Source of the DNA: Kaistia soli DSM 19436
Lineage (GTDB): Bacteria > Pseudomonadota > Alphaproteobacteria > Rhizobiales > Kaistiaceae
Assembly (NCBI RefSeq): GCF_900129325.1
Contig: NZ_FQUP01000001.1
Span: forward strand, 992,001 to 1,056,000
Direction of reading: 5' to 3'
DNA length: 64,000 nucleotides
Shown: one piece after another, positions 3,914 through 25,041 of the stretch
Layout: each line of letters begins with the position of its first letter
How positions within the stretch are numbered: the first letter of the stretch is position 1
Translations under genes and position numbers: made by a program
Notes under the pieces: model-generated
What the model was told of the DNA's origin: nothing
Database searches by the model: none
What the model saw: only the letters and a program-made list of their open reading frames with translations

Positions 3914-3927
3914 CTGATCGATGGATG

Positions 3928-7771: not shown

Positions 7772-9020
7772 AGCGGTTCAGCACCTGCATCTGCGGCATG
7801 AGGGGCGGCACGAAGCCGTCATTGGTTCCGACCATGAACCAGAGCAGCGCGGCGGTCTTGATCGAATAGGGCGAGTCGCTGATCAACAGCAGCAGGCAGA
7901 TATAAGTCGCCACCAGCATCTTGAACCGCCAGGCATCAGGATTGTCCTCGCGGCCGAAGATGAACAGCGTCCAGAAGCCGATGACACCGAAGATGCCGAT
8001 CTCACTGATCGTATAGGCATAGCCGGAGTCGGACAGGAACGGCTTGTCGGGCGAAATGCCGAAGGCGCCGCGAATATCCAGCGACGTCAAAAGACGGGCG
8101 GTCCAGAGCAGGCGCCCTCCCAGATCGTTGCGCCAGTCGACCTCGGCACTGGTGAAGCCGTAGATCGCCAGCGCCAGCATCACGGCCATCGGCAGGAAAT
8201 ACCAGGCGATCCGCGGCAGGCGGAACGGCACCAGCGAGAGCGCGGTCGCGGCGATGCAGACATAGAGTCCGAAGCGCGCATCGGAGAGGATGATCGGCAT
8301 GGCACCGAGCACGAACAGCGTCTTCCGCCAGCGCATGTCCTTCCGGTAGAGCGCCCACATATAGAGGATCGCCCCGAAATTGCCGGCCGAGACGGGCTCC
8401 AGGAAGACCGAGGAGACGCGGTGCGGTCCCAGGAAAGGCAGGATGTTGCGCGCGTCCGGGCGCAGGCCGCTGGCGAAAAGGCCGGACTCACCCGTGACGT
8501 CGGAGGCCGCGACGGTTCCGCGCGCGACGTAGTAGGCGATGATGTTGAAATACTTGATATAAATGTCGAGAAAGAAATATTCGAACAGGCCGAAGAACAG
8601 CACGATCGCGCCTGAGATCAGCGCTGCCAGATCGGCGATCCGGCGATCAGGATAGCGACGGCCAAGCGTGTAGAAGGTGATCGGGATCAGGAAGTCGCGG
8701 ATCGCCTTCAGGTCGAGCATCGGCCGGAGCGCCATGATCAGCGCCATGTAGCTCATGAAGATGCCGAGGATCAGCCACAGCGTCACCTTGCGGTTGACCC
8801 CGAGCGCGAAGGCCGCGCTGATCAGCACCATCTCGGCGCCCATCACCATCGTGTCGGTCACCCGGAACACCACGGTGTTGACGAAACAGAGCAGGAGATT
8901 GAACACCAGCGCGCCGACGAGGATCAGCACGATCGCCGGCTGGTGGATCCGATCTCGGATGGCATCGGGGTCGAACGCGCCGAAGGCGGTATCGACGCGG
9001 CCGGTGGCGAAGGAGCGCAT
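7701..9020 (-). CDS. Wzy-like polysaccharide polymerase
   Basis: 439 residues, strongly hydrophobic, with about ten to twelve membrane helices starting near residue 25 (AIVLILVGALVFNLLLCFVNTVVF) and a large central extracytoplasmic loop (about residues 155-205, ending in LGPHRVSSVFLEPVSAGNFGA). This topology and the Arg- and Glu-bearing loop resemble O-antigen/exopolysaccharide polymerases. It starts 10 bp after the Wzz/Wzc-like gene and is surely cotranscribed. Translation in this frame is open far upstream, but residues before the ATG at 9020 overlap the preceding gene and are low-complexity. The specific polymer is unknown. Confidence 0.75.
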   Translation of the reverse strand: MRSFATGRVDTAFGAFDPDAIRDRIHQPAIVLILVGALVFNLLLCFVNTVVFRVTDTMVMGAEMVLISAAFALGVNRKVTLWLILGIFMSYMALIMALRPMLDLKAIRDFLIPITFYTLGRRYPDRRIADLAALISGAIVLFFGLFEYFFLDIYIKYFNIIAYYVARGTVAASDVTGESGLFASGLRPDARNILPFLGPHRVSSVFLEPVSAGNFGAILYMWALYRKDMRWRKTLFVLGAMPIILSDARFGLYVCIAATALSLVPFRLPRIAWYFLPMAVMLALAIYGFTSAEVDWRNDLGGRLLWTARLLTSLDIRGAFGISPDKPFLSDSGYAYTISEIGIFGVIGFWTLFIFGREDNPDAWRFKMLVATYICLLLLISDSPYSIKTAALLWFMVGTNDGFVPPLMPQMQVLNRFTRGRASAVSASPAHEPSARSSA

Positions 9021-9030
9021 GGCCGCGCCG

Positions 9031-11073
9031 TCAGCGATCGATGACGCCGACCACGCCGATCGCGGCCGAAGCGAGCGGGCCGAGCGAGGCGATGAGGTCG
9101 CGGATGTCCTCGCTGGAGCTGCGGCCGGTCGTCGCCACCACGATGACGGCGTCGACATATCCGTAGCTCGCCGCGAGCGTCCGCGTGTCGCGCGATGGGC
9201 CGCCGTCAATGAGGATGAATTCGCGGCCTTCGAGCCCGAAGGGATCGCTGCTCTCGGCGTCCGACCTGCCCGCGCGGTGGCGTGCGCCATGTGTGCCGAG
9301 GAGGCGCTCGCTGACTTCCTTGTGCGCCGCTCGGGTAGCGGCTGGTGCCGAGCGCTCGATCCGCAGCATCGACGAAATATCGTTCGCCGAGCAAAGCAGC
9401 GTCTCCTCTCCGAGATCGGCAAGCGCCCCGGCGAGGCCCCGCGCGACGCGCGGACCATTCAGGACCGAGCCCGCCTCGATGAGCAGGATCGTTGCCGGCA
9501 ACGCATCGGCGAGATGGATCGCGAGCGCCTGCGCGGCCGGCAGGAGCGCCTCGCGATCGGCGGCGTCGGGATCGTCCGCCTCGACATGCGCAACGCCGTC
9601 GCGCTTTAGCCAGCGGCGACGACGCGATGGCAGCACCCCGACCAGCTCCGTGCCGAGGCTGCCGCTGATGGCGCGGAGCCTTGCAATCGGATCGGTAGCA
9701 AGGAAGTCCACGGCGAAGGCAAGCGCAATGCCGGCGGCGAGCCCGAACAAGGTTCCGGCCGCCAGGACAATCGCCTTTGGCGGGGCAGACGCCTTGACCG
9801 GCGGGACGGCGACCGAAATCACGCGCGAATTGTTGGTCTGGATCTGCTGCTGGAGATCCAGCTCCTTGGTGCGGTTCAGCACCGCATTGTACACTTGCTG
9901 GATCGCGTCAGCGTCGCCTTGCAGCTCGCGCGCCCGGATTTCCGCGGTGTTGCTTGTGGCCTGCGTCGCAGTGATCGCCTGCTCCTGCGCCTTCAGCGAG
10001 GCGAGATTGGCCTTGGCGCGGCTATAATCGATCTCGATGGCCTGCTTGATGCGGACGATCTCGGCATCGATCAGCCTCGCCACCGCATCGCGTTCGGATT
10101 CGGCTTGCTGCAGCGCCGGGTGATTGGGGCCGAGGGACCGGGCGAGTTCCGCCAGTTGCTGAACGACGCGGCCATATTGCGTCCTGAGCGCCGTAATGGT
10201 GGGCGAGCTGATCACCTCGGGAATTCCGCCGGCCTCGACCACTGAGAGATCAAGTCCACGCACCTGATCGCGGCGCGCCTCGAGTTGCGCCACCTGAGCC
10301 GTAGCAGCAGTGATGCGGGTGGTGAGGTCCTGCAGACGCTGGTTGACGACGAGACCGGCCGTACCGGTCGTGACGAGGCCATTCTCAGCGCGGAATTGCT
10401 CCAGGCGGTGCTGCGCGTCTTCAAACTGCGCGCGCAGCGAGGTCGCCTGGCCGACAAGGGATTCATTCGCCTGCCGCGCGGCGGCAAGGCGCGCTTCGCG
10501 GCTTTGCGCCAGATAGACGGTCGAGATTGTGTTGGCGATGAGCGCGGCGCGATCCGCGTCGTCATGCGTCACGGTGATCTGGAATACGAGCGAGGGATCG
10601 GCGCGGTGAACGACGACGTTGCCGCGCAGCATGTCGAGCACATGGACGAAGCGCGGGCTTACGGCGCCGCTGCCATCGGCCGGCCAGTTGACCATGGAGC
10701 CGGCATAGAAGGGATCGTGCTCGAGATCAAGCTTGCGGATCACCTCGGCCAGAACATTGGTGGAGGCGATGATCAGCGGCTGGCTGTCGACATTCGCGAA
10801 ATCGATCGATGCCGAACTGTCGGTCGGCAGGATATCGCGCCCGACAACCTGCAGACCCTGCGGATCGACGAGAATCTCAACCGTCGAGCGGTAAACGGGA
10901 TGCTGATGGTGAATATAGAGCGCGGCAAGCACCAGGAAGAGCAGACCGCAGCCGATGACGAGCGCGAAGCGGCGGCGGATCACCGCGACCAGTTCCATGA
11001 CATCGATCGACGATAGCGGCCGGCGAGCGGGAAGCACTGCCTCCATGAGCCGTCCATCCGCCCGCGCGAGCAT
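9031..11073 (-). CDS. Wzz/Wzc-like polysaccharide co-polymerase, degenerate kinase domain
   Basis: 680 residues. Wzz domain: membrane helix at about 37-57, then an extended periplasmic coiled-coil (about 180-400, rich in Ala/Gln/Glu) and a second helix at about 435-455 after a PPVKASAPPKA proline motif. The cytoplasmic part (about 500-680) aligns with bacterial tyrosine kinase domains (Wzc/ExoP/GumC). However, the Walker A position reads EAGSVLNGPRVAR and lacks the GxGKS/T lysine, Walker A' reads LLCSANDIS, and there is no C-terminal Tyr cluster. It probably sets chain length or couples export but does not phosphorylate. The start ATG at 11073 has GAGGA 7 nt upstream. Confidence 0.85.
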   Translation of the reverse strand: MLARADGRLMEAVLPARRPLSSIDVMELVAVIRRRFALVIGCGLLFLVLAALYIHHQHPVYRSTVEILVDPQGLQVVGRDILPTDSSASIDFANVDSQPLIIASTNVLAEVIRKLDLEHDPFYAGSMVNWPADGSGAVSPRFVHVLDMLRGNVVVHRADPSLVFQITVTHDDADRAALIANTISTVYLAQSREARLAAARQANESLVGQATSLRAQFEDAQHRLEQFRAENGLVTTGTAGLVVNQRLQDLTTRITAATAQVAQLEARRDQVRGLDLSVVEAGGIPEVISSPTITALRTQYGRVVQQLAELARSLGPNHPALQQAESERDAVARLIDAEIVRIKQAIEIDYSRAKANLASLKAQEQAITATQATSNTAEIRARELQGDADAIQQVYNAVLNRTKELDLQQQIQTNNSRVISVAVPPVKASAPPKAIVLAAGTLFGLAAGIALAFAVDFLATDPIARLRAISGSLGTELVGVLPSRRRRWLKRDGVAHVEADDPDAADREALLPAAQALAIHLADALPATILLIEAGSVLNGPRVARGLAGALADLGEETLLCSANDISSMLRIERSAPAATRAAHKEVSERLLGTHGARHRAGRSDAESSDPFGLEGREFILIDGGPSRDTRTLAASYGYVDAVIVVATTGRSSSEDIRDLIASLGPLASAAIGVVGVIDR

Positions 11074-11373: not shown

Positions 11374-12207
11374 ATGTCATATGACGGTCCAGATCGGCGG
11401 TGGGTTCCCCGTTTTCTTCGCGTGGGCGGGGTACACATTCCCTATGCCTCGCGGGAGAAAGTCCTCCAGACCATCGATCGATCGTTTCATGACCGCAGCC
11501 AGATCCGCGTCGCCTTCTGCAATGCGCATACAATGGTCTCCGCGCTGCGCTCGCAGGGTTATATCGACACGCTCTCGCATTTCCTGGTGCTGAATGACGG
11601 TGTCGGGCTCGACCTGGCATCGTCGCTGTTCATGGGACATGGCTTCGAGGACAATCTGAACGGCACCGATCTTGTCCCCGAGATCCTCGAAAAGGCCAGC
11701 GCGCCGGTTTCGATCTACATGCTCGGCGCCAAGCAGCATGTCGTCGAAGAAGCCGGCCGCCAGCTTGCCGCCCGCTTTCCCCGCCACCGCATCGTCGGCA
11801 TGCATCACGGCTATCTGAAGCGCGAGGACGAGGCCGGCGTGGTGGCCAAGATCAATGCCTCGGGAGCCGACCTCCTGCTCGTCGCCATGGGCAATCCTCG
11901 CCAGGAACAGTTCATCGACCGTAACGCTGCGGACCTGTCGCCTCGCGTCCTGATCGGCGTCGGCGCGCTGTTTGATTTCATCAGCGGCACGGTGCCCCGT
12001 GCGCCGCAATGGATGCGCATGCTGCGCCTCGAATGGCTGTTCCGCCTGATGATCGAGCCACGCCGCCTCGGCTGGCGCTATACCGGCGGGCTCGCAATCT
12101 TCCTTGTCGAGATCATGCGGCTGCGCGTTGCCCGCATGTGGGCGAAGCCGGAAGATCTTGAGCGCGAGGAACAGAACCTGCCCAAACGCCTCCGGCCGGA
12201 AAACTGA
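11374..12207 (+). CDS. WecG/TagA/CpsF-family glycosyltransferase (GT26)
   Basis: 277 residues. GT26 signatures: a LNDGVGLDLASSLFMG segment, the NGTDLVPEILE block, and LLVAMGNPRQEQFI (usual form GxPxQE), followed by VGALFDFISGTVPRAPQWMR and an amphipathic C-terminal tail rich in Arg. Members transfer N-acetylmannosaminuronic acid, ManNAc or glucose-type sugars to lipid-linked intermediates at the inner face of the membrane (GumM/WecG/TagA). It is the first gene of a six-gene plus-strand operon. Three ATGs lie close together; ATG at 11374 gives the best family N-terminus. Confidence 0.9.
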   Translation: MSYDGPDRRWVPRFLRVGGVHIPYASREKVLQTIDRSFHDRSQIRVAFCNAHTMVSALRSQGYIDTLSHFLVLNDGVGLDLASSLFMGHGFEDNLNGTDLVPEILEKASAPVSIYMLGAKQHVVEEAGRQLAARFPRHRIVGMHHGYLKREDEAGVVAKINASGADLLLVAMGNPRQEQFIDRNAADLSPRVLIGVGALFDFISGTVPRAPQWMRMLRLEWLFRLMIEPRRLGWRYTGGLAIFLVEIMRLRVARMWAKPEDLEREEQNLPKRLRPEN

Positions 12208-12244: not shown

Positions 12245-13471
12245 ATGCGGATCTTGATGGCGGCGGCGGCTTTCCCGCCCTTCATGGATGGCGGTGGTCC
12301 CGTCTCGGCCATGCTGGTCGCCAAGCTGCTGCTCGGCGCCGGCCATGAGCTTCTCGTCGTCAATGTCGCCGACGAAGCGAAGGAGGAGGTCTATGACGGC
12401 GTTCCCGTGCGGCGCCTTGAGACACTCAATCTCTATTGGAACTACCGCGTGCCGCGTCCGGCCTGGAAAAAAGCGGCCTGGCATGCGCTGGAGAATTTCA
12501 ATCCGCGCGCCTTCCTCGCGATGCGGCGCGAGATCGCCCGCTTCAAGCCGGATCTGGTGCTGACCGACAGCATCGAGAACGTGAATGTCGCGACCTGGGG
12601 CGCCGCGCGCGCCGCGGGCATCCCCATCTGCCATATCCTGCGCTCCACCTTCCTGCTCTGCTGGAAGGGCTCGATGATGCGCGGCGGCGAAAACTGCGCC
12701 GGGGCCTGCGGCTCGTGCAAGGCGACGTCGATCGGCAAGAAGGCGATGAGCCGCCTCGTCGATGGCGTTGTCGGCGAAACCGATTTCATCATCGCACGCC
12801 ATGTCGACGCCGGCTATTTCTCGAACGCCGAAACGCGCCGCATCCCGGGCGTCGTTCCCCGCCTCGCGGCCGATGCACCGCGTCCCGCTCCGGAGGGCCG
12901 GCCGCTTCGCGTCGGGTTCATCGGCGTCCATACCCCGATGAAGGGTCCGCATGTCCTGGCCGACGCGGCACGGAGTCTCGCCGGATCCGGCAAGGCCGAA
13001 TTCCTGATCGCCGGCAGCGGGCAGGACGCCTATGCGGACGGGCTCATGGACCGCTTCCCGAAGGCCGAGACGCGCTTTCTCGGCTGGAGCGACCCCGACG
13101 CGTTCTTCCCGCAGATCGATGTGCTCGTCGTGCCATCGCTGTTCCAAGAGCCGTTCGGCCGGGTCATCGTCGAAGCCTTCGCGCATGCCGTCCCGGTGAT
13201 CGGCGCCCGCTCAGGCGGTATCGCCGAGACGATCGAGGACGGCTTCAACGGCTATGCGGTTCCGCCTGGCGATGTCGCTGCGCTCGCCACCAGGATCGGC
13301 GAACTCGCCGATGCGCCGGAGAAGGTTGCGGCCCTTTCGGCCGGGGCTCTTTCTTCGGCGCGGCGTTATCTGCCGCCGATCCTCTCTGCGGCCTATACGG
13401 ATTTCTTCGACCGCTTGGTCCGTCGCGCCGATGTCGCTCCCGATCTTGCGGCGGGGAATGCACGCCGATGA
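12245..13471 (+). CDS. GT4-family glycosyltransferase
   Basis: 408 residues with two Rossmann domains. N-terminal acceptor domain: AAFPPFMDGGGPVSAMLVAKLL with the GGGP loop. C-terminal nucleotide-sugar domain: RVGFIGVHTPMKGPHVLADA, VVPSLFQEPFGRVIVEAFAHAVPVI with the EPFGRVIVEA version of the E-x7-E motif. A Cys-rich insertion (ENCAGACGSCK, about residues 157-167), seen in some GT4 enzymes, may bind metal. The ATG at 12245 has a GGAAGAG ribosome binding site and lies 38 bp after the GT26 stop. It retains an NDP-sugar transferase role for the repeat unit; donor and acceptor are unknown. Confidence 0.88.
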   Translation: MRILMAAAAFPPFMDGGGPVSAMLVAKLLLGAGHELLVVNVADEAKEEVYDGVPVRRLETLNLYWNYRVPRPAWKKAAWHALENFNPRAFLAMRREIARFKPDLVLTDSIENVNVATWGAARAAGIPICHILRSTFLLCWKGSMMRGGENCAGACGSCKATSIGKKAMSRLVDGVVGETDFIIARHVDAGYFSNAETRRIPGVVPRLAADAPRPAPEGRPLRVGFIGVHTPMKGPHVLADAARSLAGSGKAEFLIAGSGQDAYADGLMDRFPKAETRFLGWSDPDAFFPQIDVLVVPSLFQEPFGRVIVEAFAHAVPVIGARSGGIAETIEDGFNGYAVPPGDVAALATRIGELADAPEKVAALSAGALSSARRYLPPILSAAYTDFFDRLVRRADVAPDLAAGNARR

Positions 13472-14877
13472 TCCTCGAGCGTCTCCGCAACAGGCCGGGC
13501 GCAGGGCGCTTTGCTTCCGCCTTTTCCTCGCGGCTCGGCAGCGCGGTCCTGTCCTTCCTCGTGCTGCTCGTGGCGAGCCACGCGCTGTCGACGCAGGAAT
13601 ATGGTCTCTATGTCTTCCTGTTCTCGATCGGCAGCGCACTCGGGCTGATCTTCGTGCTCGGCCAGCAGATCCTGGTCGTCAAGCACTATCGATCCGGCAT
13701 CGGCCTCGATCACCAGGGCAACAAGGCGCTGCTGCGCGTCAATGCGCTGTGGCTGATCCTCGGAGTCGGGACGCTGATCGCTGCGTCGATCGTTGGTTTC
13801 GTGATCCGCGGGCGGCTGCCGGCGCCGTATGATCAGATCTATGTCGCCCTGATCTTTGCGGCCGTCTATGCGGTCAGCGAATATCTGCAGAACTATTTCC
13901 GCATCCATGGCCGCATCAACCTGTCGCTGACGCCGCGCGAGATCGCCTGGCGCATCGCCTCGGCCGTCGTCCTCGCCAGTCTCGCGGCGGGCGGCGTGCT
14001 TTATGGCGGAGCCGAGGCGTTCTGGGCGGTGACGGTGTTGCTCGCGGTCGCGACGGCCTATCAGATGCGCCATTTCATCCGCGACGAGGGCGTGACTTTC
14101 CTGGGCAAGACCGGCCGCACCGACCGTGTGACGCGCCGACAGTGGCGGAAGGAAAGCTACTACTTCATCGCCAACAACATCCTGAACTCGGCATCGGCCT
14201 ATCTCGAGACGATCGTGATCGGCGCGGCGCTCGGGCTCGACCAGGCGGCGTTCTATTTCGTCGCGCTGCGCATCGCGATGTTCCTGACGCTGCCGGTGGC
14301 GGCCATCGATACTGTCGGCATTCCGATGATCGCCGCGCGCTTCCAGGCGGAGGATGTGGCGGGCGCGCAGCGTCTGGTCGGCCGGCTCTCGTTTGCCTCG
14401 TTCGCAATCTCGCTCGCCGGTGCGCTCGGTCTCGCGATTGTCGGCAATTTCGTCCTGGTTCTGTTCAATGCCGAGTTCGCGCAGCATCACGACGTTCTAA
14501 TCGCCCTCTGCCTCTCAGCCGTCTCCATCGCCTTTTTCGGGCCAGGCTCGTGGCTGCTGATGATCGGGGGCGGCGAGCGCTATTTCCTGATCGGCCGGTC
14601 GATCCTGTTCGTCTTCTATCTCGGTCTGCTCTTCGGCCTTGCCAAGCTCGACGGGCTCATGGGCATCGCCATTGCCGGACTGCTGATGAACGTCGCTTCC
14701 AACCTGATCGCCACGATCTGGGTCATGCGGCGCTGGCGCATCGACAATATGGCGACCGCCTTCCTGAAGCCGTTCCTCCTCTTCGACGGACGGCGGGAGC
14801 GACGCCGTGTCCAGAAGAGTGTCCCCGTCGAGCGCCGCGTTGCGCTTGCGGAGGGAAACGGGGAGGCATCCGCATGA
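13468..14877 (+). CDS. Wzx-type oligosaccharide flippase
   Basis: 469 residues, about 12-14 membrane helices, of the polysaccharide-transporter (PST/MOP) superfamily. The N-terminus (RFASAFSSRLGSAVLSFLVLLVASHALSTQEYGLYVF) is typical of Wzx/MATE-like flippases that move undecaprenyl-linked repeat units to the periplasm. It starts within the stop codon of the GT4 gene (ATGA at 13468-13471) and its own stop overlaps the next start (14874-14877). Together with the Wzy-like gene at 7701-9020 it indicates a Wzx/Wzy-dependent polymer. Confidence 0.88.
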   Translation: MILERLRNRPGAGRFASAFSSRLGSAVLSFLVLLVASHALSTQEYGLYVFLFSIGSALGLIFVLGQQILVVKHYRSGIGLDHQGNKALLRVNALWLILGVGTLIAASIVGFVIRGRLPAPYDQIYVALIFAAVYAVSEYLQNYFRIHGRINLSLTPREIAWRIASAVVLASLAAGGVLYGGAEAFWAVTVLLAVATAYQMRHFIRDEGVTFLGKTGRTDRVTRRQWRKESYYFIANNILNSASAYLETIVIGAALGLDQAAFYFVALRIAMFLTLPVAAIDTVGIPMIAARFQAEDVAGAQRLVGRLSFASFAISLAGALGLAIVGNFVLVLFNAEFAQHHDVLIALCLSAVSIAFFGPGSWLLMIGGGERYFLIGRSILFVFYLGLLFGLAKLDGLMGIAIAGLLMNVASNLIATIWVMRRWRIDNMATAFLKPFLLFDGRRERRRVQKSVPVERRVALAEGNGEASA

Positions 14878-16715
14878 ATATCCATCGCAGTGCCGAACCG
14901 GACATGCGGACACCAGCCGCGTTCATGCGGGGCGACGTCTCGCGCCATCTCTCGGAGGGATCTTCCGGCGAGCTACATGAAATGAATGAGGCGACCGATC
15001 CGGCCGCGTTCGGCATGCCGGTGACGCTAGGAACGTTCGGCGGGTTCTACCATCCGGGCCGCAGCGGTCTTGCTGTCCTGATGTTGAGCCCGATCGGCTT
15101 CGAGGAGATGTGTATCCGCTCGACATGGCGCAGCCTCGCCGCGCTGATCGCCGCGGAGGGGCTGCCGTGCCTGCGCTTCGACTATCCCGGAACCGGCGAC
15201 GCGCTCGATCCGGTCGAGGCGCCAGACGGCATCGAGGACTGGAAAGATGCCATACGCCAAGCCGCCCGCTGGCTGAAGGATGTCGCGGGCGCTGAGGAGA
15301 TCGCCCTGCTCGGCCAAGGTCTCGGCGCGTCGCTGGCGCTGCTGATGGCGCAGGAACTCCCCGGAACGCGCGCTGTCGTCTCGATGGCCGCCGTCGACAA
15401 TGGCCGCCACTATCTGCGCGAGCTCGCCGCTTGGTCTCGGATCGTCACGGACTCGATCGGCATCGGCCGCGATCCGGACGACGCGAATGGCCTTGCCGTC
15501 GCGGGCCTCGACCTGCCCGCGGGCCGCGCCGCCGCGATCAAAGCGATCCGCCTCGACGCGCTGGAAACGCGGCCTGCCGAGGACATACTGGTGGTCGGCC
15601 GCACGATATCGGATCGCGACGGACCGCTGGCCGATCACCTCGAAGCGCTCGGCGCCCATGTCACGCGACAGCCTTTCGAAGGCTATGAGACGCTGCTCAC
15701 CGACCCGACGCAGGCCCGGCCGCCGATGGCGACGCTCGCCGGCATCGCATCCTGGATCTCACATCTCGCAACGGCCCGGCCAGGCGACGCCCGTCTGCCA
15801 CCACCCGTGGAGCCGCTTCGCGGAGGCGGGTTTGAGGAAATGCCGACTCGCTTCGGCCCCGACGGCCGTCTTTTCGGAATCCTGTGCCGACCGACAGGCG
15901 CGCGCAACGCCCCGACGCTCGTCTTCACCAATGCCGGGCATGATTATCACATTGGCTGGGCACGCGTGACCGTCGAGCTGTCGCGCGCCCTCGCCCGGGA
16001 AGGCTTCGCAAGCTTTCGCTTCGATCTCGATGGTATCGGCGACAGTCCGGACCATCCGGGCGCGCCGGAGGAAGTGCTCTATTCCGAGCTGCATATCGCC
16101 GACGCGATCGCGGCAGTCGACCATGTGGCGGCACATTCAGCCGGGCCGATTATCCTGGTCGGCCGCTGCAGCGGCGGTTATGCGGCGCTTCAGGCGGCGG
16201 TGCAGCGGTCGGCTGTCCGCAAGCTCGTCATCATCAACACGCAGCGCTTCGTCTGGGATGCCGACGAGGACGTCGCCACCGCCGTCCGCTACGGCCATCG
16301 CAGCGTCAGCAATTTCGGTGCAACGCTGATGAAGCGCGACACGATGAGACGACTGCTCCGCGGCGAGCTGAATGTCGGACCGGCCGGCCGCTATATCGTC
16401 CGGACGGTGGCGACGCGGGCAAGCCGCGCGCTGGCGCCTTTTCTCGGCGGGCTCTCGAAGCACGCGCGCATGCACCGCGCCGTGCATCGGCAGTTTCGGG
16501 CGCTCGAACAGCGTGGCACCGATGTTTCGATGCTATTTTCGACCGATGATGCGGGGCTCAACGAGTTCAATGTCTATTTCGGCGCGCGCGGCCAGCGCCT
16601 TAGCGCCTATCAGCGCGTCAGCATGCGGCTGATCGCCGACGCCGACCATAACTTCACCCATCAAGGCGCCCGCGCCCGTCTGCTGACGGCGCTGCGCGAG
16701 GTGCTCGCATCATGA
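14874..16715 (+). CDS. Tandem alpha/beta-hydrolase protein with altered nucleophile elbows
   Basis: 613 residues made of two alpha/beta-hydrolase domains (about 55-300 and 320-613). Each has the oxyanion/strand motif (LRFDYPGTGDAL at about 100 and FRFDLDGIGDSPD at about 381). The nucleophile elbow of domain 1 reads G-Q-G-L-G (147-151), with Gly in place of Ser. Domain 2 reads G-R-C-S-G (430-434) with Cys432 in place of Ser, as in dienelactone hydrolases. A late Asp-His (DADHNFTH, about 589-594) could serve domain 2. It resembles hydrolases found in polysaccharide (exosortase-type and EPS) loci. It is fully inside the EPS operon by ATGA overlaps on both sides. I infer an acyl-transfer or esterase role on the polymer or its lipid carrier. 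Confidence 0.75.
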   Translation: MNIHRSAEPDMRTPAAFMRGDVSRHLSEGSSGELHEMNEATDPAAFGMPVTLGTFGGFYHPGRSGLAVLMLSPIGFEEMCIRSTWRSLAALIAAEGLPCLRFDYPGTGDALDPVEAPDGIEDWKDAIRQAARWLKDVAGAEEIALLGQGLGASLALLMAQELPGTRAVVSMAAVDNGRHYLRELAAWSRIVTDSIGIGRDPDDANGLAVAGLDLPAGRAAAIKAIRLDALETRPAEDILVVGRTISDRDGPLADHLEALGAHVTRQPFEGYETLLTDPTQARPPMATLAGIASWISHLATARPGDARLPPPVEPLRGGGFEEMPTRFGPDGRLFGILCRPTGARNAPTLVFTNAGHDYHIGWARVTVELSRALAREGFASFRFDLDGIGDSPDHPGAPEEVLYSELHIADAIAAVDHVAAHSAGPIILVGRCSGGYAALQAAVQRSAVRKLVIINTQRFVWDADEDVATAVRYGHRSVSNFGATLMKRDTMRRLLRGELNVGPAGRYIVRTVATRASRALAPFLGGLSKHARMHRAVHRQFRALEQRGTDVSMLFSTDDAGLNEFNVYFGARGQRLSAYQRVSMRLIADADHNFTHQGARARLLTALREVLAS

Positions 16716-17749
16716 GACTGAGACTTGGCCGCGGCATAGCGGGCCTGCTCGCGCTCGCCGCAATGACGACGACGGCGGTCGCGGAGCCATGCCTGCGCGG
16801 CGTCAATCTGGCGGGTGCGGAATTCGGGAAGCTGCCGGGCAGGCTACACACCGATTATACCTATCCGACCAAGGCGACGATCGACTATGTCGCCGGCACC
16901 GGGGCGACGGTGATCCGCCTGCCCTTCCGCTGGGAGCGACTGCAGCCAAAGCTCGGCAAGCCGTTCGATCCCGGCGAGCTCGCCGCGCTCGACGAGGCGG
17001 TCGCAACCGCGTCCAGGGCCGGTCTCGCCGTCATTCTCGATCCGCATAACTACGCCTATTACGACGAGCAGCGGATCGGCTCCGATGCCGTGCCGGCGCA
17101 AGACTTCGCCGCGTTCTGGTCGCGGCTCGCCGGCCATTACAAGAACGAACCGAAGCTCGTCTTCTCGCTGATGAACGAGCCCTACGACATCCACGCCAAT
17201 GACTGGCTGGTGGACGTGAACCTCGCGATCGCGGCGATCCGCAAGACCGGCGCCGGCAACCTCATCCTTGTGCCCGGCACCGCCTATACCGGCGCGCATA
17301 GCTGGACCAAGGATCTTCCGGTCGGCAACAACAGCAAGGTGATGGGCGGCGTCGCCGACGCGCTCGACCACTATGCCTATGATTTCCATCAGTATCTCGA
17401 TGCCGACTTCTCCGGCCGCAACGCAGAATGCACCGGTGGCGCCGAGGCGCTGGCAGGGATCGATCGCGTCACGGCCTGGCTGAAGGCCAATGGCAAGCGC
17501 GGCTTCCTCGGCGAGTTCGCGGCGTCCGACGACCCCGCCTGTATTGCGGCCATGACGAAACTCGTCACGACGATCAACAATGCGAAGGCCGAATGGATCG
17601 GTTGGACCTACTGGGCCGCCGGTGAATGGTGGCCGCCTGACTATATCTTCAATGCCCAGCCGACAGACGAGGGCGACCGGGCGCAGGTGGTCGCACTGAA
17701 GCCATTGATGAAGGCCGAAGACGCAAGCTGCGGGGCGGGAAACCAGTGA
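16712..17749 (+). CDS. Exported GH5 glycoside hydrolase (endoglucanase-like)
   Basis: 345 residues with a Sec signal peptide (cleavage near TAVA-EPC, residue 24). The GH5 fold is recognisable: GVNLAGAEFG, ATVIRLPFRWERLQP, DPHNYAYY, the acid/base Glu156 in SLMNEP, His-Tyr in DALDHYAYDFHQYLD, the nucleophile Glu268 in FLGEF, and WTYWAAGEWWPP. It would cleave a beta-glycan in the periplasm or outside the cell. A glycanase embedded in an EPS operon usually edits or trims the polymer, so the polymer may be cellulose- or mannan-like; this is inference. It starts inside the preceding stop codon. Confidence 0.88.
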   Translation: MRLRLGRGIAGLLALAAMTTTAVAEPCLRGVNLAGAEFGKLPGRLHTDYTYPTKATIDYVAGTGATVIRLPFRWERLQPKLGKPFDPGELAALDEAVATASRAGLAVILDPHNYAYYDEQRIGSDAVPAQDFAAFWSRLAGHYKNEPKLVFSLMNEPYDIHANDWLVDVNLAIAAIRKTGAGNLILVPGTAYTGAHSWTKDLPVGNNSKVMGGVADALDHYAYDFHQYLDADFSGRNAECTGGAEALAGIDRVTAWLKANGKRGFLGEFAASDDPACIAAMTKLVTTINNAKAEWIGWTYWAAGEWWPPDYIFNAQPTDEGDRAQVVALKPLMKAEDASCGAGNQ

Positions 17750-18969
17750 GGATGTCCGCAACGCCCGCTGCACGGCCGCTACGCGTGCTTCATGTGGTGC
17801 GCCAGTTCCACCCGAACCGCGGCGGGCTCGAGGACTTCGTCGCCAATCTTGGGCGCGCCCAGGCGGCTGCCGGGCTCGACGTTTCAGTTCTGACGCTCGA
17901 CCGGCTGTTCACGCGACCGGATGAGCCGCTGCCGGCAGTGGATCATCTCGGGTCGGTCGCCATCCGACGCATTCCTTACCGTGGATCGAACCGCTATCCG
18001 ATCGCGCCGGGATTTCTCCATGCCGTCGGCGCGGCAGATCTCGTTCATGTGCACGCCATCGACTTCTTCTTCGACGCCCTGGCGGCGACCAAGCCGCTCC
18101 ATCGCAAGCCCCTCGTCGCTACGACGCATGGCGGGTTCTTCCATTCCGGCGCCTATTCGGGATTGAAGCAACTCTGGTTCAACGGCCCGACCCGCCTCTC
18201 GACGCTTGCCTATCGCCGCATCGTCGCCTGCAGCCCTCAGGACGCCGCGCGCTTCGCCCCGGTTGCCGGCAAGCGGCTGACCCTCATCGAGAACGGCGTC
18301 GATATCGATAAATTCCGCGGCGGCGCTAGCCCGCGCAAGGTCAAGCGTCTCGTGACGATCGGGCGCCTCGCCGTCAACAAGCGGCCGGAGCGCCTGCTTG
18401 CCGCCATGGCCGAACTGGCGCGCCGCGACGCTGAATGGCAGCTTTCCGTGGTCGGCGCAGCGTCGGACTGGTCGGCCGACCGGTTCATGGCAGAGGTGAC
18501 ACGGCTGGGGCTTCAGAACAATGTCACACTGCATCTCGGCCTGCCGGATGCAGAGGTCAGAAGCATCATCGGCAGCGCCTCGCTCTTCGTTTCGGCTTCG
18601 GAGTTCGAAGGCTTCGGCATTGCCCTTGTCGAGGCGGCGAGCGCCGGCCTCGGCCTCGTCGTTCACGCCAACACGGCCTTCAGCGATCTTGCCGCCCGCC
18701 ATTCCGGCATCGGCCTGACCGATTTCACCGATCCCGTCCGCGCTGCCGCCGATATTGCCCGCGCCTTTGACCAGATGGCCCAGCGCCCCACGGTCCCCGG
18801 CTGGGTCGACGACTATGCATGGACAAGCGTTGCGGCCCGCTATGCTGATGTCTATCGAATGGCGCTGGGGCAGCCGCTTGCGGATGCGCCTGAATTTCTT
18901 GATGAGGGTTCAGCATCGGTTAAACATCTCGAACAGCCGTTGCCGATCCTGAAGATTCAGCCGAAATAG
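17746..18969 (+). CDS. GT4-family glycosyltransferase (second)
   Basis: 407 residues. The N-terminal segment RVLHVVRQFHPNRGGLEDFVANL has the GG loop of GT4 enzymes. The C-terminal part has RLVTIGRLAVNKRPERLLAAM and SASEFEGFGIALVEAASAGL, with the E-G-F-G-I-A-L-V-E catalytic/donor motif (GumH-like). I list the GTG at 17746, which overlaps the GH5 stop; ATG at 17752 (MSATPAARP) is equally plausible and differs by two codons. It is the last gene of the EPS operon; the 95 bp that follow lack an obvious terminator, so read-through into the carrier-protein operon is possible. Confidence 0.87.
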   Translation: MRMSATPAARPLRVLHVVRQFHPNRGGLEDFVANLGRAQAAAGLDVSVLTLDRLFTRPDEPLPAVDHLGSVAIRRIPYRGSNRYPIAPGFLHAVGAADLVHVHAIDFFFDALAATKPLHRKPLVATTHGGFFHSGAYSGLKQLWFNGPTRLSTLAYRRIVACSPQDAARFAPVAGKRLTLIENGVDIDKFRGGASPRKVKRLVTIGRLAVNKRPERLLAAMAELARRDAEWQLSVVGAASDWSADRFMAEVTRLGLQNNVTLHLGLPDAEVRSIIGSASLFVSASEFEGFGIALVEAASAGLGLVVHANTAFSDLAARHSGIGLTDFTDPVRAAADIARAFDQMAQRPTVPGWVDDYAWTSVAARYADVYRMALGQPLADAPEFLDEGSASVKHLEQPLPILKIQPK

Positions 18970-19064: not shown

Positions 19065-19310
19065 ATGCGGGATCGTATTCGTAAGCTTATCGCCGAGCGC
19101 AAAGTCGTCGCCGTCGATGTCGATACCCTGTCGGATACATCCGATCTCTACGAGGCTGGACTCAGCTCCTTCGCTTCGATCCAGTTCATGCTGGCGCTCG
19201 AAGATGAGTTCGACATCGAGTTTCCCGAGCGGATGCTGACGCGCAAGACCTTCGCCTCGATCGAGGCGATCGACCGGTCGATCGCCGAGCTTATCGGCGA
19301 GCAGGTGTAA
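19065..19310 (+). CDS. Acyl carrier protein-like aminoacyl carrier
   Basis: 81 residues, acidic, four-helix carrier protein. The phosphopantetheine attachment region reads DLYEAGLSSFASIQFMLALEDEF, with Ser35 aligned to the serine of the usual DSL motif and the helix-II continuation typical of ACPs. It lies just upstream of an amino acid:[carrier protein] ligase, whose known relatives load glycine or alanine onto such stand-alone carriers. The ATG at 19065 has GGAGAGG just upstream; a TTG five codons earlier is less likely. It is the first gene of a five-gene operon. Confidence 0.88.
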   Translation: MRDRIRKLIAERKVVAVDVDTLSDTSDLYEAGLSSFASIQFMLALEDEFDIEFPERMLTRKTFASIEAIDRSIAELIGEQV

Positions 19311-19315
19311 GCGTC

Positions 19316-20503
19316 ATGGCGGTGCCCTCCCCCACCATCGAAATCCTCCGTCCCCCGGCGGAACGCATGCGCAGCGTGGCGGAGATCGCCGCGCGGCATT
19401 CAGGCGATGTGGACCGCGAGGGCCGCTTTCCGCAGGAGGCCGTCGACGCCCTGAAGGCCGAGCGGCTGATGAGCGTCATGGTACCAAAGCGCTTCGGCGG
19501 CGAGGGTCTCAGCCTGCTCGAGACGGCCGAGCTCTGCACCATCCTTGGTCAGGCCTGCGGCTCGACCGCGATGATCTATGCGATGCACCAGATCAAGGCA
19601 TCGAGCCTTGTCTCGCATGGTGGCAGCAGCCCCTGGCATGCCGGATTCATGCGCGATCTCGTCGACGAGCAATATCTCCTCGCCTCGGCCACGACCGAAG
19701 GCGGTATTGGCGGAGACCTGCGCAATTCGATCTGCGCGGTTCATGTCGCCGACGGCCGCTTCACCTTGGAGAAAGACGCGACCGTCATCTCCTACGGCCT
19801 CTACGCCGATGCGATCCTCGTCACCTGCCGGCGCGCGCCCGATGCGCAGAGCTCCGACCAGTCGATGGTGGTCGTGAAGCGCGGCGACTATACGCTCGAC
19901 AAGACGACAGGCTGGGACACGCTCGGCATGCGCGGAACCTGCTCGGAGGGCTTCCGCCTCGTCTCGGCCGGCGACGCCGCCCAGATCTTCCCGCAGCCCT
20001 TCTCCGAGATCGCGGCGCAGTCGATGCTCTCGGCATCGCACATCCTCTGGGGCGCCGTCTGGTTCGGCATTGCCGCCGATGCCGTGGCCAGGGCGCAGGC
20101 CTATGTGCGCGCCGCGGCCCGCAAGCAGCCGGGCAGCCTACCGCCGGGCGCACTCCGCCTCGCAGAGGTCGTCGCGATGCTGCAGGACATGAAGGCGAGC
20201 GTGGTCGCGGGCGTCGTCCGCTATGAGGCGGCGATGAACCGTCCGGACGCGCTGTCCTCCATGGGTTTCGCCGCCGAAATGAACAATCTGAAGATCACGA
20301 CCTCGCAGCGCGCGGCCCAGATCGTCACTCATGCGATGCTGATCACCGGCCTTTCCGGCTACAAGAACGACACGCCCTTTAGCGTCGGACGCCATCTGCG
20401 CGACGTGACCTCCGCCGCGATCATGATTTCGAACGATCGCATCCTGTCGAACACGTCGAACCTGCTTCTCGTGAGCCGCTTCGATACCAGCCTGGTGAAC
20501 TGA
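19316..20503 (+). CDS. Acyl-CoA-dehydrogenase-like flavoprotein
   Basis: 395 residues with the acyl-CoA dehydrogenase layout: an N-terminal helical domain ([27 protein letters not shown]), a middle beta domain ([38 protein letters not shown]), and a C-terminal helical bundle. The usual catalytic Y-E-G-T region near the C-terminus reads [15 protein letters not shown], so the classic Glu is absent at that position. It probably acts on a carrier-bound aminoacyl or acyl group rather than free acyl-CoA, by analogy with carrier-dependent dehydrogenases in natural-product pathways. It begins 5 bp after the carrier gene and ends 1 bp before the ligase gene. Confidence 0.83.
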
Positions 20504-20504
20504 C

Positions 20505-21446
20505 ATGGACGCTCTCTCGCAGACCGCACCCGCCCCAGGACAGGGTGGCGCGAAGGAATTCCTCGACCAGCTCTTCAGCGCCGGTGTCCTGACAGAAACG
20601 GGCGTCGATGGCCTCTATGGCCGGTCGGGCGATTTCGAGGAGGTGATCGAGCGCTTCGAGACGCTCGTCACGCGCTATGCCGGCGCGGACAAGGCCGAGC
20701 GCATCCATTTCCCGCCGGGCATGCCGCGCCCGATGCTGGAAAAGTCAGGCTATCTCAAGAGCTTTCCGCAACTCGCCGGATGCGTCCATTCCTTCATGGG
20801 TGGCGAGGCCGATCATGCGCGTCTGCTGCAGATGCTGGCGAATGGCGAGGACTGGACCGATCTTCAGCAGGCGACCGATGTCGTACTGACGCCCGCAGCC
20901 TGCTACCCGCTCTATCCGACCGTCGCCAAGCGCGGACCGATGCCGGACGGCGGCGTGCTGTTCGATCTCAAGTCCTATTGCTTCCGCCATGAGCCATCGC
21001 AGGACCCGGCGCGCATGCAGCTGTTTCGCATGCGGGAATATGTCCGCATCGGCTCGCCGGAGGAGGTCCGCGCTTTCCGCGAAAGCTGGCTGGAGCGCGG
21101 CCCGGAGCTGATCCGCTCGCTCGGCCTTCCCTGCGAAATCGACCTTGCCAACGACCCGTTCTTCGGCCGCGCCGGCAAGATGCTCGCCAACAACCAGCGC
21201 GACCAGGGCCTAAAGTTCGAGCTGCTGATCCCGGTTGCCAACGAGAAGCCGACGGCCTGCCTCTCGTTCAATTATCACCAGGATCATTTCGGCACGCTCT
21301 GGGGCATCCAGCAGGCCGATGGAACGCCCGCCCATTCCGCCTGTGTCGGTTTCGGGCTCGAGCGCGTGGCGCTCGCGCTCTTCCGCCATCACGGCATGAA
21401 GGTCGCCGACTGGCCGCAATCGGTCCGCGCCGTGCTCTGGGGCTGA
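20505..21446 (+). CDS. Amino acid:[carrier protein] ligase (SerRS-like)
   Basis: 313 residues, a class II aminoacyl-tRNA synthetase catalytic core without a tRNA-binding domain. Motif 2 is [11 protein letters not shown] (about 173-183) and motif 3 is [17 protein letters not shown] (about 281-297). Three predicted zinc ligands, Cys133, Glu178 and Cys280, match the pattern of atypical (methanogenic-type) seryl-tRNA synthetases and their rhizobial homologues. Those homologues, described from Bradyrhizobium and Agrobacterium, activate glycine or alanine and load it on the phosphopantetheine of a neighbouring carrier protein instead of tRNA. The gene lies two genes after such a carrier. The substrate amino acid cannot be read from sequence. 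Confidence 0.9.
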
Positions 21447-21450
21447 ACCG

Positions 21451-22452
21451 ATGGCCGACCTCAAGGCGCTCGATCCCGCCTCCCACCGACCGCACGCGCT
21501 GCATGACGGCGCGCGCCATTGGCCGGAGACCAATTGCTATGTCGACCTGTTCATCGAACTGGTCGGCGCGCTCGGGTTCGAGGTCGAGGCGATGTTCGGC
21601 TTCACGGTGACGCAGGATTTCGAGGGCGACCAGTTCTCTTTCTTCAAGGTGCCGGTCGACGATCTTGAGGTACTCTACGGATTGCGCGTGCAGGAGCTCG
21701 CGATCTTCGACCGTCTCGAAGGCCATGTCGTCGAGCAGCTCGGCCGCGGCCGCGTCATCCTCGTCGAGGTCGACGGCTATTTCCTGCCCGACACCGGCGG
21801 CGTCTCCTATCGCGTCCAGCACACCAAGACGACGGTTGGAATCACGCATCTCGACGTCGCCGCACGCCGCATGCGCTATTTCCACAATGGCAGCTTCTTC
21901 GCGCTCGAAGGTGCGGACTATGACGGCATCTTCGGACCCGGGGGCTCGGCGAAGAACGCCGATGCGCTGTTCCCCTATGTTGAATTCGTCAAGCTGCCGG
22001 CCGAAGATGCTCCGCGCATCGATACGCTGGCGGTCGCCAAGCGCCTGCTGACGCGCCATCTCGCCCGCCGCCCGGCTGCCAATCCGATCCGAGCCTACGG
22101 CGATGCGCTGGCCGCGCATCTCGCCGATCTCGGCACGCGGGCGCCGGACTATTTCCATGTCTACGCCTTCAACACGCTCCGCCAGCTCGGTGCCAATTTC
22201 GAGCTGCTGGCGAGCCATCTCGCCTGGCTGACCGGTCACGGCGAAGCCGGCCTCGCGCGCGCCGAAGCGGCCGCGCTGGATATCGCCGCCAGCGCCAAGG
22301 TGATGCAGTTCAAGCTTGCCCGCGCCATGGCGCGCAGCCGCTATGACGGGCTGGATGGCCTCATCGAGCCTATGGCGGCCGCCTATGACATCGCGATCGG
22401 CGAGTTGGTCGCCCGCTATGCCGAGCCATCTGCCGCCCGTCAGGCCGCCTGA
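21451..22452 (+). CDS. DUF1839 protein, possible BtrH-like aminoacyl transferase
   Basis: 333 residues of the DUF1839 family, which is repeatedly found beside amino acid:[carrier protein] ligases; no function is established to my knowledge. The N-terminal half has a papain/C39-like pattern: Cys29 at the start of a helix (ETNCYVDLFIELVGALG), a VEVDGYFLPD strand with Asp108, and His124 in RVQHTKTTVGITHLDV. This resembles the BtrH N-terminal fold, an acyltransferase that takes an aminoacyl group from a carrier protein. The C-terminal half is helical (about 190-320). It starts 4 bp after the ligase stop. The transferase role is inference from fold and context. Confidence 0.75.
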   Translation: MADLKALDPASHRPHALHDGARHWPETNCYVDLFIELVGALGFEVEAMFGFTVTQDFEGDQFSFFKVPVDDLEVLYGLRVQELAIFDRLEGHVVEQLGRGRVILVEVDGYFLPDTGGVSYRVQHTKTTVGITHLDVAARRMRYFHNGSFFALEGADYDGIFGPGGSAKNADALFPYVEFVKLPAEDAPRIDTLAVAKRLLTRHLARRPAANPIRAYGDALAAHLADLGTRAPDYFHVYAFNTLRQLGANFELLASHLAWLTGHGEAGLARAEAAALDIAASAKVMQFKLARAMARSRYDGLDGLIEPMAAAYDIAIGELVARYAEPSAARQAA

Positions 22453-22459
22453 GCCATTC

Positions 22460-24913
22460 ATGCAGCCGCTTTCCGACAGCGCGGTTCGCATTCTCAATCT
22501 CGACGCCGGCTGGGACTTTCTGCTGACCGAGGCCGGCGCGTTTGCCACCCCGCCCGGCAATGCCGACTGGCTGCCGGCGATCGTGCCCGGAACGGCGGCG
22601 CAGGCGCTCGCGGCGCTCGGACGCTGGTCGCTGGAAAGGCCGGAGCCGCTTGCAGGTCACGACGTCTGGTATCGTGTGACGCTGCCTGGCAGCGGGCCGG
22701 CGCGGCTCGACTTTGAAGGCCTCGCCACCATCGCCGATATCTTTCTCGACGGCGAAAAGATCCTCGCCAGCGACAGCATGTTCCAGCCGGTATCGGTTGT
22801 GATCGACCGCCGGCCAGGCGCCGTGCTGGCGATCTGCTTCCGAAGCCTCTCCGCTGAACTCGAGCGTCGCAAGAGCAAGCGGGCGCGCTGGCGGCCGACG
22901 ATGATTGACGATCAGCGTCTACGCCTCGTTCGCACAACCCTGCTCGGCCATATGCCGGGCTGGTGTCCGCCGGTCGACGCGATCGGCCCCTATCGCCCGG
23001 TCGGCCTTGTCGAGACGACAGCGCCCGCGATCGACAATCTCGATGTCCAGGTTTCGCTGGTCGGCAACACCGGGCGCGTCGCCGTCAGCTTTGCCTATGA
23101 CGGCCCTGACGAGCCGATCAGGCTGACCGTCGGCGGCAGCGATGCTCGATTGAAGCGCGCCGGCACCCATGTCAGCGGTGTGATCGAACTTTCCGATGTC
23201 CATCTCTGGTGGCCGGCCAGCCATGGCGGTCAGCCGCTTTACCCGGTCGCGATCCGGATCGGCGACCGCCAAATCGATCTTGGGCGCGCCGGTTTCCGCA
23301 GCATCACGGTCGATCGCGGAGCGGATGGCCGTGGTTTCGCGCTGGTGGTGAATGGCGTGCGGATCTTCTGCCGCGGCGCCGTCTGGACGCCGGCCGATCT
23401 CATCTCGCTGGCCAGCGATCGGGTCAGCCTCGAACCGCTGATCAGGCTGGCAGCCGAAGCCGGGATCAACATGCTGCGGGTCGGCGGGACGATGCTCTAT
23501 GAGGCGCGCGCGTTCCACGATCTCTGCGACGAATATGGCATCCTCGTCTGGCAGGACTTCATGTTCGCGAATTGCGACTATCCCGCTGATGATGCGTTTG
23601 CCGCGACAGTCGGCGCGGAGGCGGAAACTCTGCTCCGGCGACTGGCGCTGTCGCCCTCGCTGGCCGTTCTCTGCGGCGGCAGCGAAGTCGCGCAGCAGGC
23701 GGCCATGATGGGCCTGCCGCCGTCAGCCTGGACAAGCCGGATTTTCGAGGACGTCCTGCCCGAAGCCGTCGCAAGGCTGCGGCCAGATGTGCCGTTTGTC
23801 GCATCCTCGCCCTTTGGCGGGGATCTGCCTTTCGTCGCCGACAGCGGCGTCACCCATTATTATGGCGTTGGCGCCTATCGCCGGCCGCTCGAAGATGCCC
23901 GGCGCGCCGATGTGCGCTTCGCCTCGGAATGCCTCGCCTTCGCCAATATGCCGGACGAGGCGACGTTGCGCGAATTGTTGCCCGTCGCGCCCGTGCATCA
24001 TCCCCGCTGGAAAGCGGCCGTGCCGCGCGATCTCGGCGCGAGCTGGGATTTCGAGGATGTGCGCGACCACTACACGGGGCTTCTCTATAGCGTCGATGTC
24101 GCACGCCTCCGAACCGAAGACCCGGCGCGCTATCTGGAGCTCGCCCGCGCCACGACGGCCGATGTGGCGGAGGCGACCATTGGCGAATGGCGGCGACCAA
24201 GTTCGCCGACCGCCGGGGTGCTGGTGTGGTTCTGGCGCGATCTCCTGCCCGGTGCTGGCTGGGGCATCGTCGATGCGCTTGGGAGACCGAAATCGCTCTA
24301 TCACGCCCTGAAGCGCGCCTTTCGCCCGCTTGCGCTCATTCTCACCGACGAGGGCATCAACGGGCTGCACCTGCATATCGTCAACGACAGCGCAGTGCCG
24401 ATCGAAGCGGAGCTGTCGCTCGCCTGTCTCCGCGATGGCCGCCTGCCGGTGGCGCGCGGCGCGAAGGCCGTCACCGTGCCAGCGCGCGGAGGACTAACTG
24501 TGACGGCGACCGAACTGCTGGGCGCCTTCTTCGACACGACCTACGCCTATCGCTTCGGGCCTGCCGGCCACGATGTCAGCCTCGCACGCCTTGCGGCTCC
24601 GGATGGCACAGTACTCGCGGAGGCCACGCATTGGCTGCCGGGCCGGCGCAGCGAACGTCACGGCCTCGGCCTTGCTGCAATCGCGGAGCGCGATGACGAC
24701 AGCTGGTTCCTGACGCTCTCGGCAGAGCGGATGGCCGCCCATGTCACCATCGCCGATCCGCGTTACCGCACTGAGGACAGCGGCTTCGACCTTCCATCCG
24801 GGACCTTACGCAGGGTTCGCCTGCTGCCCTTCAACGCTGGCGAGACGGCGCCGCCGGAAGGTGAGATCCGGGCGATCAATGGCACCGATATCGGACGCTA
24901 TGCGGGCGGCTGA
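22460..24913 (+). CDS. Atypical GH2 beta-mannosidase-like protein
   Basis: 817 residues with GH2 architecture: N-terminal jelly-roll (about 12-185), immunoglobulin-like sandwich (about 190-285), TIM barrel (about 300-590) and C-terminal beta domains. The barrel retains Glu409 and Glu490 at the acid/base and nucleophile positions, but the contexts are unusual: LCGGSE instead of the near-invariant xxGNNE/GDNE, and FASECLAF instead of SEFG. It is the same length as the canonical beta-mannosidase at 46225-48678 but has diverged at the active site. It starts 7 bp after the DUF1839 stop; ATG at 22418 is an alternative that overlaps. It has no signal peptide, so it is cytoplasmic. It may act on, or only bind, an amino-acid-modified sugar. 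Confidence 0.8.
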   Translation: MQPLSDSAVRILNLDAGWDFLLTEAGAFATPPGNADWLPAIVPGTAAQALAALGRWSLERPEPLAGHDVWYRVTLPGSGPARLDFEGLATIADIFLDGEKILASDSMFQPVSVVIDRRPGAVLAICFRSLSAELERRKSKRARWRPTMIDDQRLRLVRTTLLGHMPGWCPPVDAIGPYRPVGLVETTAPAIDNLDVQVSLVGNTGRVAVSFAYDGPDEPIRLTVGGSDARLKRAGTHVSGVIELSDVHLWWPASHGGQPLYPVAIRIGDRQIDLGRAGFRSITVDRGADGRGFALVVNGVRIFCRGAVWTPADLISLASDRVSLEPLIRLAAEAGINMLRVGGTMLYEARAFHDLCDEYGILVWQDFMFANCDYPADDAFAATVGAEAETLLRRLALSPSLAVLCGGSEVAQQAAMMGLPPSAWTSRIFEDVLPEAVARLRPDVPFVASSPFGGDLPFVADSGVTHYYGVGAYRRPLEDARRADVRFASECLAFANMPDEATLRELLPVAPVHHPRWKAAVPRDLGASWDFEDVRDHYTGLLYSVDVARLRTEDPARYLELARATTADVAEATIGEWRRPSSPTAGVLVWFWRDLLPGAGWGIVDALGRPKSLYHALKRAFRPLALILTDEGINGLHLHIVNDSAVPIEAELSLACLRDGRLPVARGAKAVTVPARGGLTVTATELLGAFFDTTYAYRFGPAGHDVSLARLAAPDGTVLAEATHWLPGRRSERHGLGLAAIAERDDDSWFLTLSAERMAAHVTIADPRYRTEDSGFDLPSGTLRRVRLLPFNAGETAPPEGEIRAINGTDIGRYAGG

Positions 24914-25041
24914 TGGCTGCCCTGCGACGCCGGGACTTGCCTCCAGCCCGCCGCGAACTTATATCAGCGGCGTTGAGAGGACGGCCTCCCCCATCGGGGA
25001 CACTTGTCGGGACGACCCGACGCTGCCGATGGGGAATGACC

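Follow-up and report, generated by a model that had tools for sequence, protein, structure and literature searches.

A five-gene aminoacyl carrier-protein operon of Kaistia soli and its possible role in modifying an exopolysaccharide sugar

Amino acid:carrier-protein ligases that resemble seryl-tRNA synthetase (SerRS) have been described in Bradyrhizobium (Bll0957) and in Agrobacterium (the Atu2571-2575 system). Their discoverers proposed a role in non-ribosomal peptide synthesis, according to a paper that argues against this role (PMC2922099); in a note added in proof, the same paper described in 2010 the gene neighbourhood treated here and predicted that Atu2574 forms an amide on a cell-surface sugar. 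The role is still called unknown in a 2022 review (PMC9437257), and two further papers contribute expression or module listings (PMC10888616, PMC11941606). No paper testing the proposed role was found in the literature searched, most subscription papers lying outside that search; within it, one paper uses the name DUF1839 and one mentions Atu2574. Here we analyse an operon of this kind in the alphaproteobacterium Kaistia soli DSM 19436, within a window of 64,000 nucleotides (the whole stretch of DNA analysed, positions 992,001 to 1,056,000 of contig NZ_FQUP01000001.1) from a genome of 5.2 Mb. A preliminary description of the window had called the end use of such systems unresolved, which agrees with the review but passes over the nearly identical proposal of 2010. 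Much of the role set out below was already predicted there; new here are the full-length CcbD/CtaG-like fold of the DUF1839 protein, its conserved triad, a one-active-copy pattern, a quantified link to Wzz genes and a hydrolase partner.

On balance, our results favour an operon whose product is a sugar unit modified by an aminoacyl (or oxidised aminoacyl) group and destined for an exopolysaccharide of the Wzx/Wzy type. The plus strand carries all five genes in the order first described: a stand-alone aminoacyl carrier protein with a putative phosphopantetheine site at Ser35 (19065..19310); a flavoprotein with the fold of acyl-CoA dehydrogenases but not their usual catalytic glutamate (19316..20503); the SerRS-like ligase (20505..21446); a DUF1839 protein (21451..22452); and a beta-mannosidase-like protein of glycoside hydrolase family 2 (GH2; 22463..24913). 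The gaps, from carrier to GH2, measure 5, 1, 4 and 10 bp, so that the 1-7 bp given in the preliminary description is exceeded by the last one; an in-frame codon further upstream, overlapping DUF1839, is a possible alternative GH2 start.

In the mechanism that we propose, the ligase would adenylate a small amino acid and load it onto the carrier's phosphopantetheine arm at Ser35, as is known for its relatives. The flavoprotein may then alter the carrier-bound aminoacyl group, and Cys29 of DUF1839 would accept the acyl group and pass it to an acceptor amine, in the way that CcbD acylates a thiooctose. As acceptor, the genomic linkage suggests a sugar that is bound to a nucleotide or lipid and later built into the polysaccharide for which the adjoining genes encode glycosyltransferases, a flippase and a chain-length protein. 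The GH2 protein, together with a tandem cysteine hydrolase encoded upstream, might conceivably trim or proofread intermediates.

By sequence, the five genes form an amino acid:carrier-protein ligase system of a known type, that of Agrobacterium Atu2571-2575. The ligase scores 501.3 bits against NF005479 (cut-off 357) and matches the Bll0957-type structures 3mey and 4h2w with E values of 1e-97 to 9e-103. It has 313 residues, of which only 126-309 align with the SerRS model NF002120, and this alignment is confined to the C-terminal part of the model (311-503 of 518), leaving the ligase without a tRNA-binding domain. Cys133, Glu178 and Cys280, which we take, as did the preliminary description, to be the zinc ligands of the atypical SerRS-like core, are correctly numbered there and invariant in 81/81 aligned ligases, the one in the window included. 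The carrier scores 102.7 bits against NF005480 (cut-off 72) and also matches the PP-binding family; among solved chains it comes nearest to the aminoacyl carrier protein of 4h2w and to Atu2571 (2jq4), and Ser35 is invariant in 80/80 aligned carriers. Because ligase and carrier belong to known families, it can be predicted, as in the preliminary description, that a stand-alone carrier is loaded with an amino acid; the sequence does not settle the choice between glycine, alanine and another one.

The DUF1839 protein (PF08893, 397.4 bits, cut-off 22.5) is predicted to be a cysteine acyl-transferase, an amide synthase resembling CcbD and CtaG. Its AlphaFold model (pLDDT 93) matches CcbD, AziU3/U2 and CtaG over the whole length of the fold. 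The putative triad C29/T127-T128/H145 is kept in 78/78 aligned copies, with one T128S; C29, a cysteine in every one of them, begins the helix 29-40 of the model and may correspond to Cys19 of CcbD. CcbD moves an amino acid from a carrier to an amino sugar, the thiooctose acceptor, and its sugar site is formed jointly by two subunits. The CcbD-like fold and the exopolysaccharide neighbours support a hand-over to a sugar; a sugar-containing acceptor had been suggested in the preliminary description on the strength of the GH2 member, which does not carry that argument.

Relatives of the ligase were collected by a pattern scan of one genome per species (84,980 species), which confirmed 325; the 80 loci compared here are the best 80 of these, at 67% identity or above, that is, close orthologues. 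The closest named locus is that of Mesorhizobium sp. BR1-1-16, with 95% ligase identity. All five genes were extracted in the same order and on one strand in 75 of the 80 loci, and GH2 lies within the operon in 76; a few of the 75 are incomplete, as where GH2 meets a contig end (L034) or the DUF1839 frame is short (L022). Four of the remaining loci (L023, L035, L039 and L049) are truncated by a contig end, and the fifth (L029) consists of carrier and ligase, with no flavoprotein, DUF1839 or GH2 match within its 8-kb flanks. The five genes are thus habitual and not rare neighbours, an order that is not due to chance; the evidence speaks for close orthologues.

An evenly drawn sample of 398 genomes of the phylum extends the comparison. 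The ligase passes its cut-off in 28 of them and DUF1839 occurs in 16 of these 28, always adjoining the ligase, while no genome of the sample has DUF1839 without it. Eight of the 12 over-cut-off genomes lacking DUF1839 were read (type B; L140-L146 and L151). These more distant ligases, some of them close in sequence to Bll0957, are accompanied by the flavoprotein in 8/8 loci and by a DUF1839 or GH2 match in none, and a divergent carrier-like gene lies upstream in three (L140, L142 and L145). Weaker ligase homologues were read in 5 of 16 genomes, and the other query genes were nearby in none. Because type B has flavoprotein and ligase without DUF1839 and GH2, two levels can be distinguished: a core of ligase, flavoprotein and carrier, and the five-gene type.

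The operon looks like the continuation of a same-strand run upstream (11374-18969) whose genes resemble exopolysaccharide genes and which the coordinates of the preliminary description leave out. The run opens with a WecG/TagA/CpsF glycosyltransferase of family GT26 (11374..12207, plus strand; TIGR00696, 130.7 bits, cut-off 69). From 12245 to 18969, five plus-strand genes are joined by four successive 4-bp overlaps (13468 to 17749): a GT4 glycosyltransferase (12245..13471; several GT4 families, below cut-off), a MOP/Wzx-type flippase (13468..14877; NF007773 and NF041503 weak, below cut-off), the tandem alpha/beta-hydrolase (14874..16715; TIGR03100/TIGR03101 below cut-off, elbow motifs), a GH5 protein of the cellulase family (16712..17749; PF00150) whose hydrophobic N-terminus is an apparent signal peptide, and a second GT4 glycosyltransferase recognised by profile matches (17746..18969), directly upstream of the carrier at 95 bp. 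On the minus strand lie a Wzz/Wzc-type chain-length determinant (9031..11073; PF02706 above cut-off, TIGR03017 at 149.9 bits below it) and a probable Wzy-like polymerase of uncertain start (7701..9098), a multi-span membrane protein by eye that has no NCBIfam match. Further out, a hexapeptide acetyltransferase of the phosphonate-linked TIGR03308 family (5797-6522) adjoins a minus-strand gene run at 2071-5766.

This neighbourhood recurs elsewhere. Counting the matches listed, 8 of 18 alphaproteobacterial genomes (0.33 expected) and 10 of 16 betaproteobacterial ones (0.21 expected) have a Wzz gene (PF02706) at most 12 kb from the operon, the expectation being calculated from Wzz gene number and genome size under random placement, with relatedness ignored. 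Across the 80 loci, the tandem hydrolase occurs in 45 and a homologue of the window's Wzx, Wzc or Wzy genes in 31, at least one of these being found in 57.

The tandem hydrolase is a genomic partner of DUF1839 in a near one-to-one manner. In the phylum sample it is present in 16/16 genomes with DUF1839 versus 1/382 without (Fisher 1e-27), and among 61 relatives it is found in exactly the 8 that have DUF1839, including 4/14 of the window's genus (Fisher 3e-10); both values ignore relatedness. Seventeen of the 22 distinct genomes have it at most 25 kb from the operon, and 14 of the 21 in which Wzz was sought have it no farther than that from a Wzz gene. In three genomes (G053, G164 and G248) it stands away from the operon but 3-7 kb from Wzz; in G311 it is placed beside a second DUF1839 copy, and in G037 it shows neither link. 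Its second domain carries a GxCxG motif with Cys432, and the first has no serine at the nucleophile place in the motifs examined.

Several observations weigh against an exopolysaccharide role. Wzz is also close to type-B ligases, in 3/8 genomes (0.15 expected), which shows that such proximity does not mark the DUF1839 type alone. Four of the eight alphaproteobacterial genomes with Wzz nearby belong to the window's own genus, and 10 of the 18 have Wzz, if at all, more than 20 kb from the operon. Neither hydrolase nor Wzx/Wzc/Wzy was found in the flanks examined of 23/80 loci, at least seven of them short stretches. No sugar aminotransferase (PF01041) appears within 60 kb of the operon or the hydrolase among the matches listed for 22 genomes, and just four of the 22 (G045, G053, G318 and G384) have a polysaccharide deacetylase gene (PF01522) at a distance of 15 kb or less; because of these results no conserved nearby source of a free sugar amine is seen, and amino-sugar biosynthesis or deacetylation near the operon receives no general support. 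For DUF1839 itself, a profile search of PDB sequences retrieved neither CcbD nor CtaG, and no sequence link to a solved structure was found. The positions of His and Thr/Ser are reported to be swapped relative to the canonical Cys-His-Glu/Asp triad (PMC10318531). A further weak point, by analogy, would be that CcbD, CtaG and AziU3 belong to small-molecule pathways.

The last point leads to the strongest alternative, in which the product is a small aminoacyl-sugar or aminoacyl-amine metabolite (an antibiotic, osmolyte or signal), the exopolysaccharide genes are mere frequent neighbours and GH2 trims a cytoplasmic glycoside intermediate. The structurally closest enzymes fit this alternative, CtaG and AziU3/U2 being, to judge by their entry titles, small-molecule pathway enzymes; so do the 23 loci without an exopolysaccharide marker, and the absence of a hydrophobic N-terminus from all five operon proteins, as judged by a crude hydropathy test. 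We nevertheless consider it unlikely, though worth keeping in mind: the hydrolase co-occurs tightly with DUF1839 and is found 3-7 kb from Wzz even when off the operon, Wzz proximity far exceeds expectation in two classes, and the operon has no conserved exporter. A PACE-family efflux transporter gene (25033-25476) directly follows GH2 in the window, with an apparent glycogen gene set beyond it in the open reading frame list; this transporter was rejected as an operon member, being near the operon in 2/80 loci.

The paralogues of DUF1839 bear on which protein performs the transfer. In a Burkholderiaceae-type family, DUF1839 occurs in 111/249 genomes, 46 of which are listed with two matches; both copies were read in 41 of these, the other five lacking the listed place of one copy. 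Another three genomes, with over two matches each, were left out. At least one copy retains the complete C/T/(T or S)/H signature in 41/41, and the second lacks the cysteine in 39/41. The exceptions are G558, whose second copy retains Cys29 but carries a cysteine at 128, and G547, where two complete operons each bear the full signature. The in-operon copy is the cysteine-less one in 22/41 genomes, and in 22/22 of these the stretch around the intact copy includes a Wzc-type gene; in 16 genomes the in-operon copy is intact and the distant one cysteine-less. In two genomes, G558 and G663, it is the GH2 gene that the intact copy faces. Nine of the 41 genomes, read after the others, all fit the pattern; many of the genomes are related and represent few independent events. 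Single-copy genomes have the full signature in 18 of 21 read, the exceptions being G532, without the cysteine, and G680 and G657, which keep it and have Cys at 128; no ligase was seen in the stretch read for these three, nor for the intact G588. This frequent arrangement of two DUF1839 genes, one cysteine-less yet full length, is illustrated by L135 (9448-10362 and 14243-15184), L183-L202, L223-L242 and L246-L261.

It could be argued from these data that DUF1839 merely binds or proofreads and that the GxCxG cysteine of the tandem hydrolase is the final acyl-transferase, perhaps forming esters on hydroxyls. An alignment of 42 hydrolases shows Cys432, Asp559 and His592 of its second domain at the 95% level of conservation, its co-occurrence with DUF1839 is near perfect and the in-operon DUF1839 is so often the cysteine-less copy. 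The retention of a full-triad DUF1839 in all 41 two-copy genomes, together with its full-length CcbD-like fold, makes this an improbable explanation. Since the sugar site of CcbD is shared by two subunits, the cysteine-less full-length copy is instead a possible pseudo-enzyme partner. Tentatively, and with less assurance than for the exopolysaccharide role as such, we envisage an amino-acid decoration of Gram-negative surface polysaccharide in which a former seryl-tRNA synthetase loads the carrier, a DUF1839 enzyme resembling a lincosamide synthetase transfers the amino acid to a sugar amine, and many Burkholderiaceae-type genomes keep a cysteine-less copy, possibly as the non-catalytic partner in a mixed dimer.

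The flavoprotein (PF02771/PF00441) has the overall acyl-CoA dehydrogenase fold in its AlphaFold model (pLDDT 90), which matches dehydrogenases and monooxygenases equally, so that the fold search discriminates neither way. In the alignment, the catalytic glutamate is not present at the position that it occupies in glutaryl-CoA dehydrogenase (GCDH) and medium-chain acyl-CoA dehydrogenase. Ile371 aligns instead with the Glu of the YEGT motif of a GCDH-like protein of the same genome; it is found in at least 90% of 33 aligned flavoproteins, and three relatives aligned with the GCDH-like protein also have Ile. We assume that the alternative glutamate position of isovaleryl-CoA dehydrogenase is no substitute. 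An ordinary dehydrogenase is weakened by the missing glutamate, which makes oxygenation or an imine-type oxidation of the carrier-bound group likelier than a classical alpha,beta-dehydrogenation.

The GH2 protein matches the beta-mannosidase 5n6u (E 5e-52). Glu409 and Glu490, which from their motif and from alignments we take to be the acid/base and the nucleophile, are found in 74/74 aligned proteins. In Pfam only the N-terminal model PF22666 passes, and NCBIfam gives no match. A secreted glycan enzyme is unlikely, because a crude hydropathy test detected no hydrophobic N-terminus, and hence no signal peptide, in 76/76 of these proteins. A second GH2 protein (PF22666, Ig_mannosidase domain) is encoded outside the operon at 46225-48966.

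A minimal non-ribosomal peptide or cofactor pathway, which recalls the proposal of the ligase discoverers and the likeness of a stand-alone ligase and carrier to a non-ribosomal peptide synthetase loading module, appears very improbable, given that no condensation or synthetase gene was recognised by eye among the recurrent neighbour clusters (no model search for such genes was run) and that PMC2922099 likewise argues against it.

The ligase and carrier of the window are homologous to those of the Bll0957 and Atu2571-2575 systems, and we take the latter to be the five genes in order. The window represents the five-gene type, whereas type B, in part Bll0957-like in sequence, has neither DUF1839 nor GH2. 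Compared with GH2 beta-mannosidases, the operon protein keeps both putative catalytic glutamates but passes only the N-terminal model, shows no signal peptide and is an operon member. DUF1839 resembles the lincosamide amide synthase CcbD/LmbD and CtaG of closthioamide in its overall fold, which aligns over 268-286 residues, in a cysteine that opens a helix close to the N-terminus, and in having a carrier protein as partner; in contrast, the likeness is not detectable by sequence, its reported residues are C-T/S-H and not Cys-His-Glu/Asp, and it is linked to polysaccharide genes and not to an antibiotic cluster. In the Dlt system, teichoic acids, which are surface polymers, are D-alanylated by means of a small amino acid bound to a carrier. 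Membership of that system was rejected for the window's operon, whose carrier scores 26.1 bits against the DltC model (cut-off 68) and whose ligase is SerRS-like, DltB and DltD not having been searched for; the likeness is one of idea alone. With a named transferase (DUF1839), its cysteine C29, a likely acceptor class and a hydrolase partner, the proposed role is directly testable. If it is true, a purpose will have been found for an odd group of tRNA-synthetase relatives, and rhizobial and Burkholderiaceae-type bacteria would possess, in principle, a Gram-negative counterpart of teichoic acid D-alanylation.

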